Shown: in pieces, positions 4,861 through 24,150 of the stretch | How positions within the stretch are numbered: position 1 is the first letter of the stretch | How the letters are laid out: each line of letters starts with the position of its first letter | DNA from: Chromera velia | Taxonomy: Eukaryota > Sar > Chromeraceae | DNA: 24,876 nucleotides | Assembly (NCBI GenBank): GCA_018398765.1 | Contig: JAHBMJ010001904.1 | Span: 1 to 24,876 of the forward strand | Direction: 5' to 3' | Program-made: the position numbers and the translations under genes | The notes under the pieces: model-generated | What the model saw: only the letters and a program-made list of their open reading frames with translations | What the model was told of the DNA's origin: nothing | Database searches by the model: none

Positions 4861-5571
4861 CTAGGGGAGGGCTGGAAGGAATGCCTTGAGCATGCAGACG
4901 GTCGTCAACCCCAGCGCAAAATACTCTGCCAGGACGGAGATTCCGAATCCAGAGCTGCGCGAGTCCTTGTCCTGCTTGTAGAGGTTTGCGAACGTAAAAC
5001 GTCCATACATGTGCAGAAGCCCAATTAGCAATGCCAAGGGACCAAAAATAGCGGCGACCATCATCTGAAACACGATGAAGGTTGGCACGGACTCGTCAAA
5101 GTTGTACACTGCGCGCTGCGCTCGATTGAACCGACCGGCTTCCCCCGTGTTTGCCATGAGGACATATGGAGCATCACAAAAGGGCTTTTCGGGAGACATA
5201 ATCCTGTAGATGTGCTGGTCAGGACGGTCCACTCTTGCCGCAGCACGTGCCCCGTTGGCGTTGATGATCAGATACGCTCTTGTGAGAAAGATCATAAAGA
5301 CAGCAACGAAAACCCAGCCGAGGTCATACTCGCGAATGAAGAGAAACTTCTTGTCGATCTTCTCTGCCTGGCCTGGCACAAAACGAAACGCCAAGTACAT
5401 AAAGTACCCGAACAAAGGAGCTACACAAACCACCAATGTCGAGATCATCTTGAAATAAAAGGTCCGAGCTTCCTTCTCGGTCTTCATTTTCGGGTTCTTG
5501 TCCAGACCCATTCCGTCACGCTTTGCAAACTCATCCTCAACACGAGGTTTCGGAACTCCTCCGTAAGACAT
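4861..5571 (-). CDS. MAPEG-family membrane protein (microsomal GST-like)
   Basis: A single open frame of 236 residues, ATG at 5571 to TAG at 4861. The C-terminal half has the MAPEG signature: R150-A-Q-R-A at 150-154, N157, E160 and P163, then a Gly-rich helix and Y189-G-R191. Hydrophobic segments lie at about 42-63, 84-104, 162-188 and 208-230, giving the four helices of the family. The first 40 residues are charged and probably cytosolic. MAPEG proteins are trimeric membrane enzymes of glutathione and eicosanoid metabolism (microsomal glutathione transferases, leukotriene C4 synthase); many distant members have no known substrate. At 236 residues it is longer than the usual 150, because of the N-terminal tail and the loop at 105-145. 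No intron is needed. Use of TAG as its stop shows that TAG is a normal terminator in this genome. Confidence 0.85.
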   Translation of the reverse strand: MSYGGVPKPRVEDEFAKRDGMGLDKNPKMKTEKEARTFYFKMISTLVVCVAPLFGYFMYLAFRFVPGQAEKIDKKFLFIREYDLGWVFVAVFMIFLTRAYLIINANGARAAARVDRPDQHIYRIMSPEKPFCDAPYVLMANTGEAGRFNRAQRAVYNFDESVPTFIVFQMMVAAIFGPLALLIGLLHMYGRFTFANLYKQDKDSRSSGFGISVLAEYFALGLTTVCMLKAFLPALP

Positions 5572-6513
5572 CGTGCCGAATTAGGTTCAAGAGAGATAAT
5601 GAGAAGTGGGGACCTCAAAGTCTTGCTACAGAGCTCGAACGGGCGATAGGGTGGTTCAGCTGTAGCACGAAAGGCGGAAGCGTGAGCCGTGGTTCAGTCG
5701 CAACGAAGTGAGAACGAAGGGAAGCAGGAGACGGAGACGGCCGGAGACAGCAATGCTAAGATCTTCGGTGACTTCAGCCTCCAAAACAACCAGACTGTCA
5801 ACAGGAGCCAAGGATCGTCGTGCGCGGTGCGTGCTGTCAGCGGTGGCAGTATACGTTTCTTCCGTTTCGAAGCAAAAAAGGAATGCAGCTAGCATGCATG
5901 CATTCGATTGATTTCAGTTACTGTATGGGTTAAAACGAAAAAAATGTTGCACTTTTATAGCCGCAAGTCGCGCTCTCGAGTAAAGGAGCCGAAATTGCTC
6001 ACTGCCACTGAGCCGATCCGCTCTGCCAGACTTATATGAATATACTTTCGCGCGCTTTGACTTGCATGTATTATGTATTATAGGTCTGGATATACACAGC
6101 TTATATATATATATATATATATAGTCATGCATGCGTACAAAGAATGAATTGAGATCAGCATCAATTACAATGCACAGATCGAGCCAATTTAATATAAGCG
6201 GTATATATGACTGGTACATAGACAAAAGCACATATAGCCAGCTATGTAGATTTGACGTCCTGGAACCCATTTGATCAGTTCCTTTCTTGTCGCCCATCTA
6301 TGGAAGGCTTCCCTTGTTTGGCAATTGATAGATAGATACAAACATATATATCTGGAAGTTATTCCCTTTCTTTGAGACGATACACATCAACGTACATTCA
6401 GACTGAATCCCGCCCCTTCAACCGACAGAGTGGTGGCAGCAACGCGTCCTTGCAAATTGGAAGGCTTGAGCCCGCAGGCCGATCGAGGTTTGCAAGGAAG
6501 GAAGGAAGGAAGC
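5572..6513. other. Divergent intergenic region between the MAPEG and orphan genes
   Basis: This 942-bp stretch separates two divergently transcribed genes and should hold both promoters and 5' UTRs. I see a TA microsatellite (about 6105-6122), a GGAA run just before the plus-strand ATG (6495-6511) and palindromic tgcatgcatgca near 5892-5903. No open frame looks coding, and no TATA box can be assigned with confidence. Confidence 0.5.
6105..6122. repeat. (TA)n microsatellite
   Basis: Nine TA units in the divergent intergenic region. Confidence 0.9.
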
Positions 6514-11823: not shown

Positions 11824-12079
11824 TGTTGTATGCCACAACTTGTGCATCCGCGGCCCCGCCCGCGCATGCACCACGCCGACGGCGCCCGACGCAAGCCCTG
11901 CCGCGCCCTGCCGATCTGATCGAACACATTGGACTCAGCGATGCTTGAATATAAACAGAACAAATCAGTCTGAATTCGTCTGCTGATCGAGTAGAAAAGT
12001 CTATGAACAAACCTCTTATATACTCCTACGAGTGAGTAGAACGGACCCGTAAATGCTGCTTCACTGTGGGTCTATATCA
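11824..12079 (+). repeat. 5' LTR of the copia element
   Basis: 256 bp, TGTTGTATGCC to CTATATCA, with canonical TG...CA ends. It has a GC-rich block (11848-11915), then AT-richer DNA. The paired LTR at 16741 is about 93% identical by eye. Confidence 0.92.
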
Positions 12080-12095
12080 TGGTAGTAGATGTGGT
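12080..12095 (+). promoter_or_regulatory. Primer-binding site, initiator-Met tRNA type
   Basis: TGGTAGTAGATGTGG directly follows the 5' LTR. It resembles the complement of the 3' end of eukaryotic initiator methionine tRNA (TGGTAGCAGA...), the usual copia primer, with a few mismatches. Confidence 0.7.
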
Positions 12096-12172
12096 TTGAT
12101 CCGCTTCTTGCTGCGCAGGAGTAGAGGACTCTTCTTCGTTTGATCGTGTGGTGCACTCTCGACATCTACGCA

Positions 12173-13522
12173 ATGGAGTCGACGTCGTCCTCCCCTCGCT
12201 ACGACCTCTCCTCACTGGTCAGCCAGCCAGTGTCTGTTGCCTCACTTAACAAAATTCTTGATGCTACGATTGCTCTAGGCAAAGTCTATCTAAAAATCTG
12301 CTCGCACAATAGCACCGAGACCGTCGTTTCCGGTTGCTCTTCTTCATTTTCCTCGTTGTTTGTTTTGCAAAACCCTGAGGAGGTCACCTCGAATGCTTGC
12401 TCTGACCCCTCCAGCATCTCCACTGTCTTGGACGGTCTCCCTGCAGATGTCTGCGCAGCTGTGGAGAGTGCTTTGGCAGCTTTGCATGCCGCACAGAATT
12501 GCGCACTCCTCTCCTTTGCCTTCCATGGATTCTTTGCGATCCTGGACATTGGAGCCAGCCGCACCTGCTGCACTCGTGGGTGGCTGCGCAAGCGGAAGGA
12601 GCAGGACGGACTCACATGGACCGAGCGCCGCTTGCCCCGGCCTTCCACCTCCTTGACTGCCAATGGTCAGGTGCCTGTGGAGCTAAAGGCCATTATCCCA
12701 TGTTGAAGCCCCTCCAGTGATCTCTCTCTCGAGGCAGACATCCTGGAAACCAATGCGATCACTCCGGTCTTAATCGGAAATGCGGCATTGATTCCCCTCA
12801 AGGCGTCATTTGAGTATGCCACGGGCATTCTTTCCTTTCCCCATCGCCTCTCTCTGCACTTCCAACGCTCCCCAAACGACTTGTTCTTCCTTGCGTTGTC
12901 TCAGCCCCCAGAGCTTCGCACGAATGACACCGTCTCCGCCTCCGAACCCATAGAGCCCCGTACCCTTACCCTGGCGTCTTCACATTCAGCGCCAACTTCA
13001 TCCTCTGTTGTGCCCTCAGAGGACAATGGACACTACACACCTCTTCCCTGCCCATCCGACTCGAGTCATGCCAAACCGAATGTAGACCCGTCCCAGCCGC
13101 AGACTGCCGGGCCCTCCCCGACTGCTCAGTCGGTCGTCTCCAGCCAACCACCCTTGACGATGGTCGTGAGCCCCCGTCTCCTTACCGGACCGGGTCAGCC
13201 GTGCTCATGCTGCCACACAGCTCCTACGACTGAAGCTGCAGCGTGCCCCGCGTTGCACATCAAGGGTATGACTGCTGAACAGAAGAAGCGAAAGCGCCGT
13301 CCGCGCAAGCGCCGCCCCCGAAAGGGCAGCCGATCCCCTCCAGCCTCCGAGTTGGAGGCCATCAATTTTGAGATGGTCGATGAATTGATTCGTGCCTCCC
13401 ACGTTGAGATTGGGCATGCAGGGGTCATGAAAACCTGGATTTCCCTCCGTTGGGCACTGAAAGGGCACCCCAAAGCCCCCTCTTACGGTATTTCGCGACA
13501 AGCTGTGCAGCGTGCCCTTTAG
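12173..13522 (+). pseudogene. Copia gag/protease and start of integrase
   Basis: ATG at 12173. One frame runs to TGA 12704-12706 and continues unchanged to TAG 13520-13522. The N-terminal part is Ser-rich and short for a gag; I find no CCHC zinc knuckle. ILDIGAS with its Asp codon at 12545 is the aspartic protease active site, where copia proteases normally have D-S/T-G, so the second residue is changed. ETNAITPVLIGNAALIPL is the end of the protease fold. After a Ser/Pro-rich and then basic (KRKRRPRKRRPRK) spacer comes ASHVEIGHAGVMKTW, the His half of the integrase zinc-binding domain. Confidence 0.7.
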
Positions 13523-14146
13523 CCATGCATCAAGGGGGGGACCTGCGCACACGTGAAACCTCGCAATGTTTCTGACGGTTGCACATCTCCCTTGAAGGTT
13601 ACAGGTCCCAGGCAGCGCCTGCAAGCTGACCTAGTGTACGGAAGGGCCGACCGCCCTAACGCATGCTATTACCTCACTCTGAAAGATGAGTAGGAAGACG
13701 ACCTGCACTATATTGCTGTATCAGACAGGGCCCCCCTGGCGTGCCGCCACCCTTCGTGAAGCCTACAAGGGGTGGGCAGCGACCTCAGCGGGGTACTATC
13801 CCAATGAGGTCATCACAGATTTGGGAAAGGAATTTCAGGGAGACTAGGCAGACTTCTTGTCTCAGATAGAAGTCGGGCACACGCTTGCCCCTGTCGGTTG
13901 GCACCGGACCCTCGGGTGCCTCGAGTGCACCCACAGGGAGGTCGATATAATTCTGCGGGCGATCGTCCACGACAACGGACTGCCCTTGAGTCATGGCCTG
14001 ACGTGGTTCAACTGGCTGTCGAACGCTACAACCGCCGTCTGGGTCCAGGGGACATTTCTCCTGCGGAACGTTGACACGGTCAGCCCGTTGTTTTCCCAAG
14101 CATTCAGGCAATGCTTGACCTCCTTTCAGCAGAAGAGTTAAAGAAT
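13523..14146 (+). pseudogene. Copia integrase core, decayed
   Basis: After TAG 13520 the frame reads PCIKGGTCAHVKPR, the Cys half of the zinc finger, then ADLVYG near the first catalytic Asp. TAG 13691 and a frameshift near the C/G run at 13730-13740 follow. VITDLGKEFQGD (about 13807-13844) corresponds to the second catalytic Asp region, with TAG at 13845, and HTLAPVGW to the start of the segment before the catalytic Glu. The usual NGxAER is not preserved. LAVERYNRRLG near 14008 is in yet another frame. Confidence 0.6.
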
Positions 14147-14881
14147 GACCCTTCTTTGCGCACTTTTTCTGCGGGGGATCGGGTGTTGTTCAATCATCCA
14201 GAAAAGCAGAGGGACAAGAGAGAGGATTTGTGGGAAGATGCAATCATTAAACAGAGACACGGGGGGCATGTATACACCATTCAGCTGTCTCGCACCCAGC
14301 GTTCCACGCTTGCACACATTCGGTGTCTTCGTCCCTCCTCAGAAACCTCCCCTCCCGCCTCCCGTTCTTTCCTGCCGCACCCTTTGAATCCGCCGCACCC
14401 CCCCTCCAGCTCTCTTTCAGATAGTCAGCCTTCCCCGCCTTCACCACCGCATGCTTCATCCCCTATCCCTTTGGCACCGTCTGAGCCCACCCTCGGTGAG
14501 TTGCCTTCCATTCACGATTTTCATCAGGGAGAGATGATCATCTGGGAGGTCTCCGAGACGCAGAAGCGCTTCCTGGGGAAGGTGGTTGGGATTGACGAGA
14601 AGACAGAACTCCTTGAAGTCCATGCGTGGGGCTCTCTCAGGCACGGTGCCCTGAAGAACCGCATGTTTGCTCCCATGTGGCGCCGTCCCACGGGGCACCG
14701 TATCCGATACCAGCACCAGCAGCCCCCTTCCCACAACCCCGACATCTGTATCATTGCCTTAGATGAGATTCGAGAGCGTTGCATCTCCCTTTCCCCTGAG
14801 GGCCGACTCCCCCATTCTACCGTCTCTACGCATGCCTCCGCATTCTCTGTCGCCCGGACTCCCGCCCCCGACTCCCTCTGA
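14111..14881 (+). pseudogene. Copia integrase C-terminal domain and pre-RT linker
   Basis: An open frame of 256 codons. The first part (SAGDRVLFNHPEKQRDKREDL, then GHVYTIQLSRTQRSTLAH) looks like the small beta-barrel that ends many integrases. A Pro/Ser-rich spacer follows (14335-14480). Then comes a second barrel-like segment (GEMIIWEVSE ... FLGKVVGIDEKTELLEVHAWG) that I do not recognise as a standard domain. The frame is lost near 14880 and the coding signal resumes in another frame before reverse transcriptase. Confidence 0.55.
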
Positions 14882-15019
14882 AGTATCCCAATCCTTGCCG
14901 AGCTTGCTGCCCTCTCCGTCACCACTGCTGAATCGGAGTACCGCCCCTCTCTTGACCCCTCCGTTTGCCCTGCTGCCTTTGCTGCCTCTGCAACCGCCTC
15001 TGAGCCCTGCAGCAACGCC

Positions 15020-15847
15020 ACTACACACATCCTGGTCCGCGTTCGTGACCTGAAGGACCCTGAGGAACAGGCACAGCACCAAGCGGGGCGGAAGAAGGAG
15101 TTAGGGAAGTTTGAGACTTATGGTGTGAAAGAGAGCATTCCAATCGATGCAGTTCCTCCCTCAGCCCGTCGTACCGCCATCCCCTTGATCTGGAGGGACA
15201 CATTGAAGCGCGTGTCCGAACATGAGCGCATTTTCAAGTCCCGTCTCTGTGCTAACGGCTCCCCCCGCTTTGACCGCCAGTCGGACATTCCCGTTTCCAA
15301 CGTCACAGCAGCCCAATGGGGTCTCCGCATTGCGCTGTGCATTGCTTTCGCCTTTCCCGAATTGAACCCCCTCACTTCTTTCCTCCTTGCTGACATCGAA
15401 AATGCCTACCTCACAGCCCCCCGCCCTGACTCCCCAAGCGGAGAGCCCACGTATGTGCGGCCCCCTCCTGACCATCCCGAGTACCACACTCACCTCTGGC
15501 TCCTCTTGAAAGCCGTGTACGGCCTCAAGGACAGCGGCTTCATCTTTGACCGCCATAGAGACCGTGCGCTCCTCAAGGTAGGGTGGGTGAAGAGCGGGGT
15601 TCCGGGCTTGTGGTGGAAATGGTCTGGCCAGCCAGGAGCAGAGTCCTCTCAACTGCTTGGCCTGTGCGCGACTTTCGTCGACGATCTGGCTGTGATTGGC
15701 ATTGGGGCGTCTCCGTCCGACCTTGTCAACGAGATTGCATCCAAAGGCCCTTTCACCATCACTAAAGTAAAAGCGGATACAAACGGCTGCGCCCGGTGGG
15801 CTGAGGTAGACATTGAACTCCGACAAGACAAGATCCGTTTGAGTTAG
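15020..15847 (+). pseudogene. Copia reverse transcriptase
   Basis: The signal runs to TAG 15845-15847. Visible motifs of the copia RT family: KSRLCANGSPRFD (fingers), LADIENAYLTAP (first catalytic Asp), PTYVRPPP, LLKAVYGLKDSG and FVDDLAVIG (the FVDD catalytic box, near 15674). These are the polymerase residues that copy element RNA. The frame continues after the TAG into AEYVQSLLQT, so a sense codon, probably CAG, has become a stop. Confidence 0.85.
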
Positions 15848-16680
15848 GCAGAGTATGTGCAGTCTCTCTTGCAGACCGTCCCGCCCGGACCCATCCCAAA
15901 CACTCCGCTTCCCGCCGATTCTCGCGACCGTCCAGACGACTCCCCCGCCTTGCCTGCTTCCCAGGCCCACTCATTCCGCTCTCTCCTGGGCGGCCTTGCT
16001 TGGGTCGCTCGAGATACCCGACCAGACCTTGCTGAGGCCTGCAACGAACTCAGTCGCTCCGTTGCCTGTCCGACCGAGCGGAGCCTCTCGTATCTCCACG
16101 GCGCCATCCGCTATGCAGCCGCAACCAAACACCGCACTCTCTGCATTCGCAGAGATGATATCCCCAAGCGTTCCGAGCCGTTGGACGTGACTGGGTGGGG
16201 GGATGCGGCACTCGGCACTGCGGGGTGTGCCTATCCGCACACCGGGTAGTTGATTGCGATCAGAAACTCTCTGATTCATTGGAGATCCTTTCGACAGCCC
16301 CGCGTTGCTCGAAGCAGTGCTCGTGCTGAGCTGTACGCCTCGCACGACCTAGTGGATTTTATGGAGTTTGTTCTTCCCTGCCTGCGGGTCGTCTAGGGAG
16401 AGGGAGTGTCCTGCACAGTGCACACTGACACGCAGGACGTGCTGCACTTAGTTGCCACAGACCATCCATATCCACGTGAGCGGTCTGTTACCAAGGTTGT
16501 CGAATCCCTCCAAGAAAAGCTCCTGGAGCGGTCTTTGTCTACCCTTGTGACACAGTCTCTCGCGTTGCGCGACGCTCTGGATGCATGCCGCATCCGTCTG
16601 TATCATATTTCAACCGACCTCAACCGCGTTGACCCCTTGACTAAAAGCATGGCCCCCAGTTGCTTCTCTCATTCTTCAGC
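15848..16680 (+). pseudogene. Copia RT tail and RNase H
   Basis: Continues the RT frame. FRSLLGGLAWVARDTRPDLAEA is the conserved segment linking RT to RNase H, and DVTGWGDAA is at the first RNase H Asp. TAG codons at 16247 and 16394 interrupt it, but the frame goes on to RLYHISTDLNRVDPLTK, the conserved end of copia RNase H. It then runs into the 3' LTR, stopping at 16849. Confidence 0.8.
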
Positions 16681-16717
16681 CAACACATCCCCGATGAGTG
16701 ATCCGAAGCAAAGTTGT

Positions 16718-16736
16718 AAAAGGAAAGAAAAAAGGA
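16718..16736 (+). promoter_or_regulatory. Polypurine tract of the copia element
   Basis: A 19-nt unbroken purine run ending 4 bp before the 3' LTR. Polypurine tracts prime plus-strand DNA synthesis. Confidence 0.8.
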
Positions 16737-16740
16737 TTTG

Positions 16741-16995
16741 TGTTGTATGCCACAACTTGTGCACCCGCGGCCCCGCCCATGCATGCACCACGCCGACGGC
16801 GCCCGACGTAAACCCTGCCACGCCCTGCCGATCTGATCGAACACATTAGACTCAGAGATGCCTGAATATGAATAGAACAAATCAGTCTGAATTCGTCTGC
16901 TGATCGAGTGGAAAAGTCTATGAACAAACCTCTTGCATACTCCTACGAGTGAGTAGAACAGATCCGTGAATGCTGCTTCACTGTGGTCTATATCT
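16741..16995 (+). repeat. 3' LTR of the copia element
   Basis: 255 bp, TGTTGTATGCC to CTATATCT; the terminal CA has become CT. Differences from the 5' LTR are mostly G/A and C/T changes. Confidence 0.92.
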
Positions 16996-22240: not shown

Positions 22241-22733
22241 TTACACCATATCAGCCGAGCCTTCCTCGGGAAGGTCATCCTCCTCCAGTTGGACGAATCC
22301 GTTCGCGTTCGCACGCTGGGAGTGCCCCCCAGTTGTGGCAGCACGCTGGCCGGGGAAGAACGCGCTGGCAGGGGAGCGTCCCCCGATTGCTTGAGCGAGA
22401 GAATTGGCATCGAAGCAGTTGGCAATCACAATGCTCGGCGTCTGTGGAGCCGCCACCTGCTGTTGCGGTTCAGCCACGATTGCACGAGGCACGACTCGGT
22501 TGGGGCTCTTCTTGCTGGGCGACAGCCCATCGGTATTCTGCTGTACGAGTGCGGTTTCCTGGCGTAGTTCTTCCAGATCATCGCCGACTCGGGGCTGCCC
22601 TGTGACGAAGGACATCTTGCGCTTTCTATGTCTGGCAAAGTCTTCTGCAGTGCCGTTCTGTCGAGCTTGCTCCTCCTCTTCCACCTCCTTTCGGAGCGTG
22701 GCCGTCCACTTCTTTCGGACGTAGTAAACGTAG
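22241..22733 (-). other. Rhodopsin exon 4: end of helix G and cytoplasmic tail
   Basis: Acceptor gaatgcag at 22734-22741. YVYYVRKKW closes helix G with basic residues at the cytoplasmic face. An acidic helix (KEVEEEEQAR), a basic KRK patch and a long Gln/Ala/Pro-rich stretch follow, with one more hydrophobic piece (TPSIVIANCFDANSLAQAI). The end is acidic. No kinase, cyclase or response-regulator signature seen. Confidence 0.82.
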
Positions 22734-24150
22734 CTGCATTCGAGCACCCATTAAGACAGACGTCAAGCAGGTAAGCATTCAGAAATCGATGATAGAGCAG
22801 CGCAGAGAGAAAAGAAGGGGGAAAAAGGAAGAACTGAGCCACGCAAGTAAGTGCTGACAGGAGGAACGATAGAAAGACAAAAAGGACCGCCAGGAGGAAA
22901 TACACACCTCCCCCACCAAGATTGCCCCTCGGGACCCATATTTTCACCCACCCACCCACTTACCCAAAGACTAACCCACTCACCCTGAGAACGCCAGTTT
23001 GCTTGCAAGGTCCATCACGGACAGTATGATGGTTTCTGCCTGCCGAGGCACTGCCGCGACACCCGCAGGCCCAATAAACCACGTGATGGGAAAGGTCACC
23101 CAGGTAACCACAACACACAGACAGATGTATCTCATGTGCGAGTTACCTGCACACATCATTGCAGGACATTTGAATGACTCTGAATCGGAAGATTCCATTG
23201 CATGCAGCATCACGATGCATGTTCTGTGAAAGCGATCTGTGCATGTGCAAGGATTCATCCTCCATGCAACAAAATGAAACAGCATGACTTACAGACTCTA
23301 CGCGCATTTGATCGGGAGTACCGATAAAGCGTGTCACAGAACTGCAAACCGACAATGCACGTGTATAGCTGCATGCGTGTAGAGTCAAATTGACTGACCT
23401 TTGAACAGTGACTCTGCATTCTCGGAGGTTTCCCTGACTGCCCAGTCCAGGTTGACGACCAGCAGGATGAAGAAGAAGAAGGTCAGTCCGAACGCCATCA
23501 TGCGGTATGAGAACTCAGGGATCGCATTGACCCACACACCGAGAATGAGCAGAAGGAAGGTGGAAAGCACCATCTCGATCTGTCTCTGTCGGTTGGAGCG
23601 GGCAAGCAAAGAAACTTGCCAGGACAAGAGGGGACAAGTCACGGCGAACTGGATGTACCTGCATTCCACAAATATGAACCACAAGGAAGAGCAGGTTTTC
23701 TATACGTTTTAAAGCCATTTTCTTGAGGTGGCTCAAGTTGGTCTCGGACTGCAGGCCCCTAGCAAGTGTGTTACGATCCATATTATCGTCTGACCTTCCA
23801 ATGTCTGTTCTGGTGCAGTCTTCGTAGATGACGTCGTCTGCTTGCGAGAGCATGATGAGGTTGTGACACGCAGAGAACAACATAATGTAGCCGTTGAGAC
23901 TTGTACACAGGCTAAAGACAGCAAGGCGTTGGTCCTTCAGATGAGGGTCGGGAAATCTGGTCCAGTAAAAGACACCAATGATGAAAAAGAGCGTAGCCTG
24001 TGCAATGCGGACCCCCCTGGTGACGTTGCTCATCCCTTCAATGGCATCTTTGGCGATGCACTCTGCAAGAAAGTCACGGGTGGCTTCAATGCAAGGCAGC
24101 AGGACAGCTGCGAGGAACAGCACGGTGGAGAGCAGGCGGTTTCTCATCAT
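22241..24150 (-). CDS. Type I (microbial) rhodopsin, channelrhodopsin-like
   Basis: Four exons on the minus strand: 24150-23795, 23658-23399, 23146-22984 and 22733-22241 (TAA). Introns are GT-AG and split codons join as Arg119, Gly206 and Gly260, giving 423 residues. A signal peptide-like helix (1-22) precedes helices A (about 47-66) and B (77-101). Helix C is R119-Y-I-Q-F-A-V-T126-C127-P-L-L-S-W-Q133. Helix E starts S169-Y-R. Helix F has W221..F224-P225..W228 and GPAG. Helix G has D251-L-A-S-K255, the retinal Schiff-base lysine. Such proteins bind retinal in the membrane and act as light-gated channels, pumps or sensors. The TCP in helix C and GPxG after helix F recall channelrhodopsins. The positions of bacteriorhodopsin D85, T89 and D96 are Gln122, Thr126 and Gln133, so outward proton pumping is unlikely. 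Residues 261-423 are a hydrophilic tail with no known domain. Confidence 0.9.
22984..23146 (-). other. Rhodopsin exon 3: helices F and G with the retinal lysine
   Basis: Acceptor gtgtgcag ending at 23147; donor GTGAGT at 22983. Helix F (CLCVVVTWVTFPITWFIG) and helix G up to the Schiff-base lysine K255 lie in this exon. The match to bacteriorhodopsin W182-x2-Y185-P-x2-W189-x2-G is position for position except Phe for Tyr. Confidence 0.9.
23399..23658 (-). other. Rhodopsin exon 2: helices C, D and E
   Basis: Acceptor gaatgcag at 23659-23666. It encodes helix C with TCPLL, helix D (MVLSTFLLLILGVW) and helix E (FGLTFFFFILLVVNLDW). The donor GTCAGT begins at 23398. Confidence 0.88.
23795..24150 (-). 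other. Rhodopsin exon 1: signal peptide, helices A and B
   Basis: ATG 24150 (a second ATG follows at 24147). LSTVLFLAAVLLPC is a typical signal peptide core. Helices ATLFFIIGVFYW and FSLCTSLNGYIMLFSACHNL follow. The donor is GTCAGA at 23794; the last two bases AG join the first G of exon 2 to make Arg119. Confidence 0.85.

Follow-up and report, generated by a model that had tools for sequence, protein, structure and literature searches.

Background

VbACR2 (CEM28120), a protein of the alga Vitrella brassicaformis, absorbs at 440 nm and conducts chloride (PMC10147648; papers are cited here by PubMed Central accession). It has Gln128 at the position of bacteriorhodopsin (BR) D85 and Asp257 at that of D212, and it lacks a carboxylate at the E68 site. 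Its blue shift has been linked to Ala and Gly at BR 122 and 141. In another Vitrella protein, CEL94649, the sole carboxylate among the three counterion sites is Glu96 at D85; this protein absorbs at 550 nm, and its small channel currents were not assigned a selectivity (PMC10147648). Here, we describe a rhodopsin gene of the related alga Chromera velia, located on the minus strand (24150-22241) of a 24,876-nucleotide stretch of DNA (contig JAHBMJ010001904.1, assembly GCA_018398765.1), which we call the window. The gene is a real, conserved member of a clade that has already been noted, and its product, the window protein, is probably an anion channel of the Gln-counterion type measured in Vitrella.

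That clade was named in 2022 (mSystems; PMC9601134) as a 'Colpodellida' rhodopsin clade of C. velia with a QTQ motif, and without a functional test. The window protein bears the marks given there, namely QTQ in transmembrane helix 3 and DxxxK in helix 7 of a C. velia rhodopsin, and no difference from the clade was noticed. Membership is near-certain on these marks, which stand in for a comparison with the clade's accessions. The initial annotation did not recognize QTQ next to TCP as a standard class, and named a described group that already has QTQ as grounds for refuting this. Such a group exists with respect to the motif, and the point still holds with respect to function, in that no functional test of a QTQ rhodopsin was found in a literature search that left out most subscription papers and all bioRxiv preprints.

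Counterion residues and their spacing

Bac_rhodopsin is the sole Pfam family found on the window protein (score 73.1 bits, with the cut-off at 24.6; E value 2.9e-20). This match, the seven helices of a predicted model, and the retinal-binding Lys of helix G (K255) agree with the criteria for a type-1 rhodopsin, and the product is predicted to be a retinal-binding seven-helix photoreceptor belonging to a C. velia multigene family. In alignment with BR, residues Q122, T126, Q133, D251, and K255 correspond to D85, T89, D96, D212, and K216, and the Arg at BR 82 is retained as R119. The aligned residues thus bear out the proposal in the initial annotation that Gln occupies both the D85 and the D96 site and that the Asp of helix G is kept; the D251-x3-K255 and W-x2-F-P-x2-W motifs also read as described there. 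A neutral residue at the D85 site, here Q122, is a trait of anion channelrhodopsins, and helix C contains the TCP motif (T126-C127-P128), which the majority of known channelrhodopsins carry. In helix B, the sites aligned with E90, E97, and E101 of ChR2 and with E68 of GtACR1 carry no Glu, and it is Ser93 that aligns with GtACR1 Glu68.

This pattern is that of VbACR2, in which Gln is likewise at D85, the E68 site lacks a carboxylate, and the Asp at D212 is the only carboxylate of the three sites. From the residue numbers printed in PMC10147648, the spacings among the E68, D85, G122, S141, and D212 sites of VbACR2 are 29, 37, 56, and 129. All four are found in the window protein and are matched by 10 of 11 rows of its C. 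velia family (P0012 differs in the first), versus none of the 35 other measurable rows, with the unmeasurable row halo_L071 omitted. This match is circumstantial evidence. The two proteins differ at BR 122 and 141, as judged by printed residues rather than full sequences, where VbACR2 has Ala and Gly and the window protein has Gly and Thr.

The cryptophyte anion channelrhodopsin GtACR1 also combines a neutral residue at D85 with TCP and an Asp at D212, but the residue at D85 is Ser rather than Gln, and Glu68 is present in helix B. Rhodopsins of the ChvCCR type (PMC9765531) come from the same alga and also have a noncarboxylate at D85 and Asp at D212. Unlike the window protein, the C. velia loci of this type analyzed here (L015 and L017) have Gly at T89, where the window protein has Thr126, and Asp at D96. 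The marks of heliorhodopsins are absent as well: a Pfam scan of the window protein gives no PF18761 match, and the D212 site is Asp251 versus Ser in all eight heliorhodopsin rows.

An AlphaFold model built from 81 sequences has seven helices, with block-mean pLDDT of at least 83 over residues 31-300, a mostly disordered tail, and an overall pLDDT of 79.5; it replaces a poor earlier model from 9 sequences (pLDDT 53.2). Foldseek and VIA-align listings for this model (50 rows each) give similar ranks to many pumps and sensory rhodopsins and do not discriminate rhodopsin classes. Natural channelrhodopsins are absent from these 50 rows, which excludes nothing, and because 65 of the 81 rows in the model's alignment are haloarchaeal rhodopsins, the ranking says little. 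It fits a rhodopsin fold and is silent on function.

Gene structure

The gene comprises the following features, with helices placed from the predicted model and motif residues from the reading frame and the BR alignment.

23795..24150, minus strand: exon 1, with the start codon, N-terminus, helices A and B, and the first two bases of the Arg119 codon
23659..23794, minus strand: intron 1, 136 nt, phase 2
23399..23658, minus strand: exon 2, with helices C, D, and E
23616..23651, minus strand: helix C motif, with Q122 (23651-23649), T126 (23639-23637), C127, P128, and Q133 (23618-23616)
23147..23398, minus strand: intron 2, 252 nt, phase 1
22984..23146, minus strand: exon 3, with helix F (W221-x2-F224-P225-x2-W228) and the start of helix G
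22998..23012, minus strand: helix G motif, from D251 (codon 23012-23010) to K255 (codon 23000-22998)
22734..22983, minus strand: intron 3, 250 nt, phase 2
22241..22733, minus strand: exon 4, with the remainder of helix G, a long and mostly disordered C-terminal tail, and the stop codon

The four exons join in phase into 423 codons plus a stop, and all three introns begin with GT and end with CAG. The encoded protein is 100% identical over 423 amino acids to a UniRef/EukProt protein of C. velia CCMP2878 (P0001), and fitting public proteins to the DNA recovers the same four exons. The positions and phases of all three introns recur in each of four related proteins (P0002, P0003, P0005, and P0006), and those of two of the three recur in P0004; P0003 and P0006 have extra introns. 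These results uphold the exons of the initial annotation, whose coordinates were correct and whose strand was unstated. The identical public model, the common introns, and a family of relatives rule out a chance joining of exons, and on sequence grounds the locus is confirmed as a genuine rhodopsin gene of C. velia. UniRef labels P0001 an 'Intimal thickness related receptor IRP domain-containing protein', a name that looks wrong because Pfam finds only Bac_rhodopsin.

The C. velia Gln family

The gene belongs to a C. velia family with 14 members whose helix C is readable and free of stops: proteins P0001-P0007 and P0010-P0012, and contigs C86, C3924, C4024, and C3494. Only exons were read for C86 and C3494, and partial models for C3924 and C4024. 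All 14 have Gln at both D85 and D96, as QTQ in 11 and as QSQ in three (P0007, C4024, and C3494). TCP is present in P0001-P0006, P0010-P0012, C86, and C3924, and the other three have SCP. At BR 82, P0004, P0010, P0011, P0012, and C3924 have Lys instead of Arg. BR 122 is Gly in all 11 family rows, and BR 141 is Thr, Gly, Ser, or Ala.

For P0001 and P0002, the ratio of nonsynonymous to synonymous substitution rates (dN/dS; NG86) is 0.143 across the helix region (residues 42-275) and 0.237 across the tail. Among the remaining 14 helix-region pairs of P0001-P0006, dS is at least 1.6 or undefined, and these pairs add little. The ratio of 0.143 makes it unlikely that the window gene is a pseudogene. 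Together with the retention of the Gln pair in all 14 readable members, it also indicates that this pair is more than chance. The tail stretches RHRKRKMSFVTG and VIANCFDA are conserved among P0001, P0002, and P0004, and partly in P0007; the tails of P0003 and P0005 are short and dissimilar.

Protein database searches returned 10 C. velia family proteins, the pair P0008/P0009 described below, and nothing else. The first rounds missed P0010-P0012 although these are in the database, so restriction of the family to C. velia is not established. P0007 had no near-identical counterpart in the C. velia assembly. No relative was confirmed in viral contigs (A1, P0008) or in genome contigs (A1), each scanned with a few short patterns and hence weakly. 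A viral or prokaryotic source of the gene is unsupported by these scans, to the extent that such patterns can test it.

Contig C2963 (L031:1320-1526) contains what looks like a pseudogene of the family. Over residues 119-185, this decayed copy has 73% identity with the window gene; it lacks TCP and has three in-frame stops in 69 codons.

Phylogenetic placement

A tree of 47 rows shows the family joined to P0008/P0009, with support of 100/99. The same join has support of 99/97 in a 35-row tree, which omits eight heliorhodopsin rows, bac_L120, bac_L121, halo_L106, and CvPump_C774. Of 80 loci, five were dropped; among the remaining 75, 10 were left out of alignment A5 and 10 were used in the 47-row tree, in which three rows duplicate others. 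P0011, whose public model lacks helix G, and the exon-only C86 and C3494 were excluded from the trees. In the 47-row tree, no single branch separates the family from all other rows (one does in 55% of bootstrap trees); in the 35-row tree, one does so at 93/88.

In P0008 and P0009 (710 amino acids, JGI), TCP is present, Glu occupies the D85 site, and Asn occupies the D212 site; by these traits they appear to be a pair of the dinoflagellate type. ETx motifs and NxxxK are reported for dinoflagellate rhodopsins (PMC9601134), as is Asn at D212 (PMC8406140). Dinoflagellate channelrhodopsins of the SmChR1 type (PMC8406140), represented here by this pair, thus have TCP in common with the C. velia family and join it in both trees, but their counterions are reversed, with Glu and Asn where the family has Gln and Asp. 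CEL94649 and VbACR2 mirror each other in the same way.

The designation 'channelrhodopsin-like' in the initial annotation agrees with the TCP motif, but neither tree joins the window gene specifically to ChR2, GtACR1, or HcKCR1. HcKCR1 is joined by L015 and L017, the C. velia rhodopsins in which Gly occupies the T89 site, at 96/93 in the 47-row tree and 88/73 in the 35-row tree, in line with PMC9765531. The family joins pumps in neither tree; chloride pumps were not deliberately sampled. Kinship with heliorhodopsins, suggested in PMC9601134, receives only 55/77 in the 47-row tree, where long branches meet.

Possible functions

We lean toward the view that the window protein is a VbACR2-type light-gated anion channel whose sole carboxylate counterion is Asp251. 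The residue pattern and the four spacings equal to those of the 440-nm chloride channel VbACR2 suggest this function. It is also supported by the purifying selection acting on P0001 and P0002 and by the dinoflagellate-type traits of the nearest tree neighbors, since some dinoflagellate rhodopsins gave small passive photocurrents (PMC8406140).

By sequence, the Schiff base of the window protein has a single carboxylate, Asp251 of helix G, which faces the neutral Gln122 of helix C. In such a channel, light would isomerize the retinal bound at Lys255. A pump-like proton relay would not be expected, because helix C offers no acceptor and the D96-type donor is missing. Rearrangement of helices A, B, C, and G might then open a neutral path through which chloride would pass down its gradient. 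Cys128 of ChR2 helps set channel closing, and Cys127 may by analogy do so here. The resulting current would change the membrane potential of the alga and could act as a photosensory signal. By analogy with the residues linked to the color of VbACR2 (PMC10147648), the window protein, with Gly and Thr at BR 122 and 141, would be expected to absorb to the red of 440 nm. The absorption of P0003, P0005, and P0006 (Gly and Gly) would be expected to lie between those of VbACR2 and the window protein.

Several observations weigh against an anion channel. The kinship with VbACR2 is drawn from a residue pattern and printed residue numbers rather than from a comparison with the VbACR2 sequence, and the spacing of 129 is by itself not distinctive, being common to 10 non-family rows of A5. 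No Vitrella protein was returned by the protein database searches. Among the solved-structure sequence matches listed for the window protein, sensory rhodopsin II and pumps are best, and no natural channelrhodopsin is among the best 60 of 112; with the family profile, none named as a channelrhodopsin is among the best 60 of 154. P0012 matches the engineered iC++, which ranks under several pumps. Selectivity is the weakest step, because ChvCCR1 of C. velia, which has a noncarboxylate at D85, conducts cations and is permeable to Na+ (PMC9765531). The window protein might by the same token be a cation channel that operates without a helix C carboxylate, but we consider this improbable: the ChvCCR-type genes are on the separate HcKCR1 branch, with Gly at T89 and Asp kept at D96, and the aligned helix B Glu sites are non-acidic in the family.

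A somewhat better candidate, though still an unlikely one, is a photosensory rhodopsin without ion conductance, in which the long C-terminal tail would pass a light-driven conformational change on to partner proteins. The conserved tail stretches and the tail dN/dS are consistent with this, as are the high-ranking sensory rhodopsin II match and the suggestion in PMC9601134 that some rhodopsins near the QTQ clade signal rather than channel ions. The case is strengthened by the finding that four of five tested metagenomic dinoflagellate-type domains lacked electrogenic activity, most being silent or weak (PMC8406140). Against it, TCP is kept in all but three family members, the same arrangement of counterions is found in a channel, VbACR2 (PMC10147648), and the tails of several members are short and dissimilar. 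Least probable, and very much so, is a light-driven anion pump. The pumps near the top of the fold ranking are uninformative for the reason given above, a Cys at the T90 site is typical of channels, and the trees offer no join to pumps.

If the family conducts anions as VbACR2 does, a single alga contains more than 12 naturally occurring variants in which the residue beside the Schiff base is a neutral Gln. They would form a set for testing how a channelrhodopsin functions when its one counterion is on helix G, and how color is tuned around that counterion. The mirror-image counterions of neighboring branches would be a natural test of carboxylate place against ion selectivity. More tentatively, it is conceivable that channelrhodopsins with a single counterion form an alveolate lineage common to chromerids and dinoflagellates, and that within this lineage the carboxylate switched between helices (Glu in C with Asn in G, or Gln in C with Asp in G). 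C. velia would then have expanded the Gln branch to at least 14 light-gated anion channels, with colors spread by Thr, Gly, Ser, or Ala at BR 141. The literature searched, partly in excerpt, names no receptor for the light-guided behavior of C. velia, and the family genes are candidates for it.

Other features of the window and assembly

Scans of the window with Rfam (gathering threshold) and for tRNAs gave no matches. Direct repeats of 246 nt, 93% identical, are found on the plus strand at 11824-12069 and 16741-16986, and the stretch between them contains a reverse-transcriptase-like frame (RVT_2, E 1.6e-6, just under the Pfam cut-off). The region 11824-16986 looks like a Copia-type long terminal repeat retrotransposon. 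An open frame on the minus strand (837-1871) has weak similarity to endonucleases and reverse-transcriptase endonucleases (E 0.006-0.007, below cut-off) and is perhaps a remnant of a long interspersed nuclear element. Also on the minus strand, 4861-5580 encodes a membrane protein of the MAPEG family (PF01124), which scores 38 bits where the cut-off is 23.4.

Elsewhere in the assembly, contigs C774, C3946, and C122 (L009, L010, and L012) have bacteriorhodopsin-like frames with a DTD-type helix C, near haloarchaeal pumps, and C122 has two equal-scoring helix G matches approximately 1 kb apart. The rhodopsin-like frame of contig C3670 (L016) has an unusual helix C (RYMGWVVAMTGYAYL), which differs from those of the other groups found.
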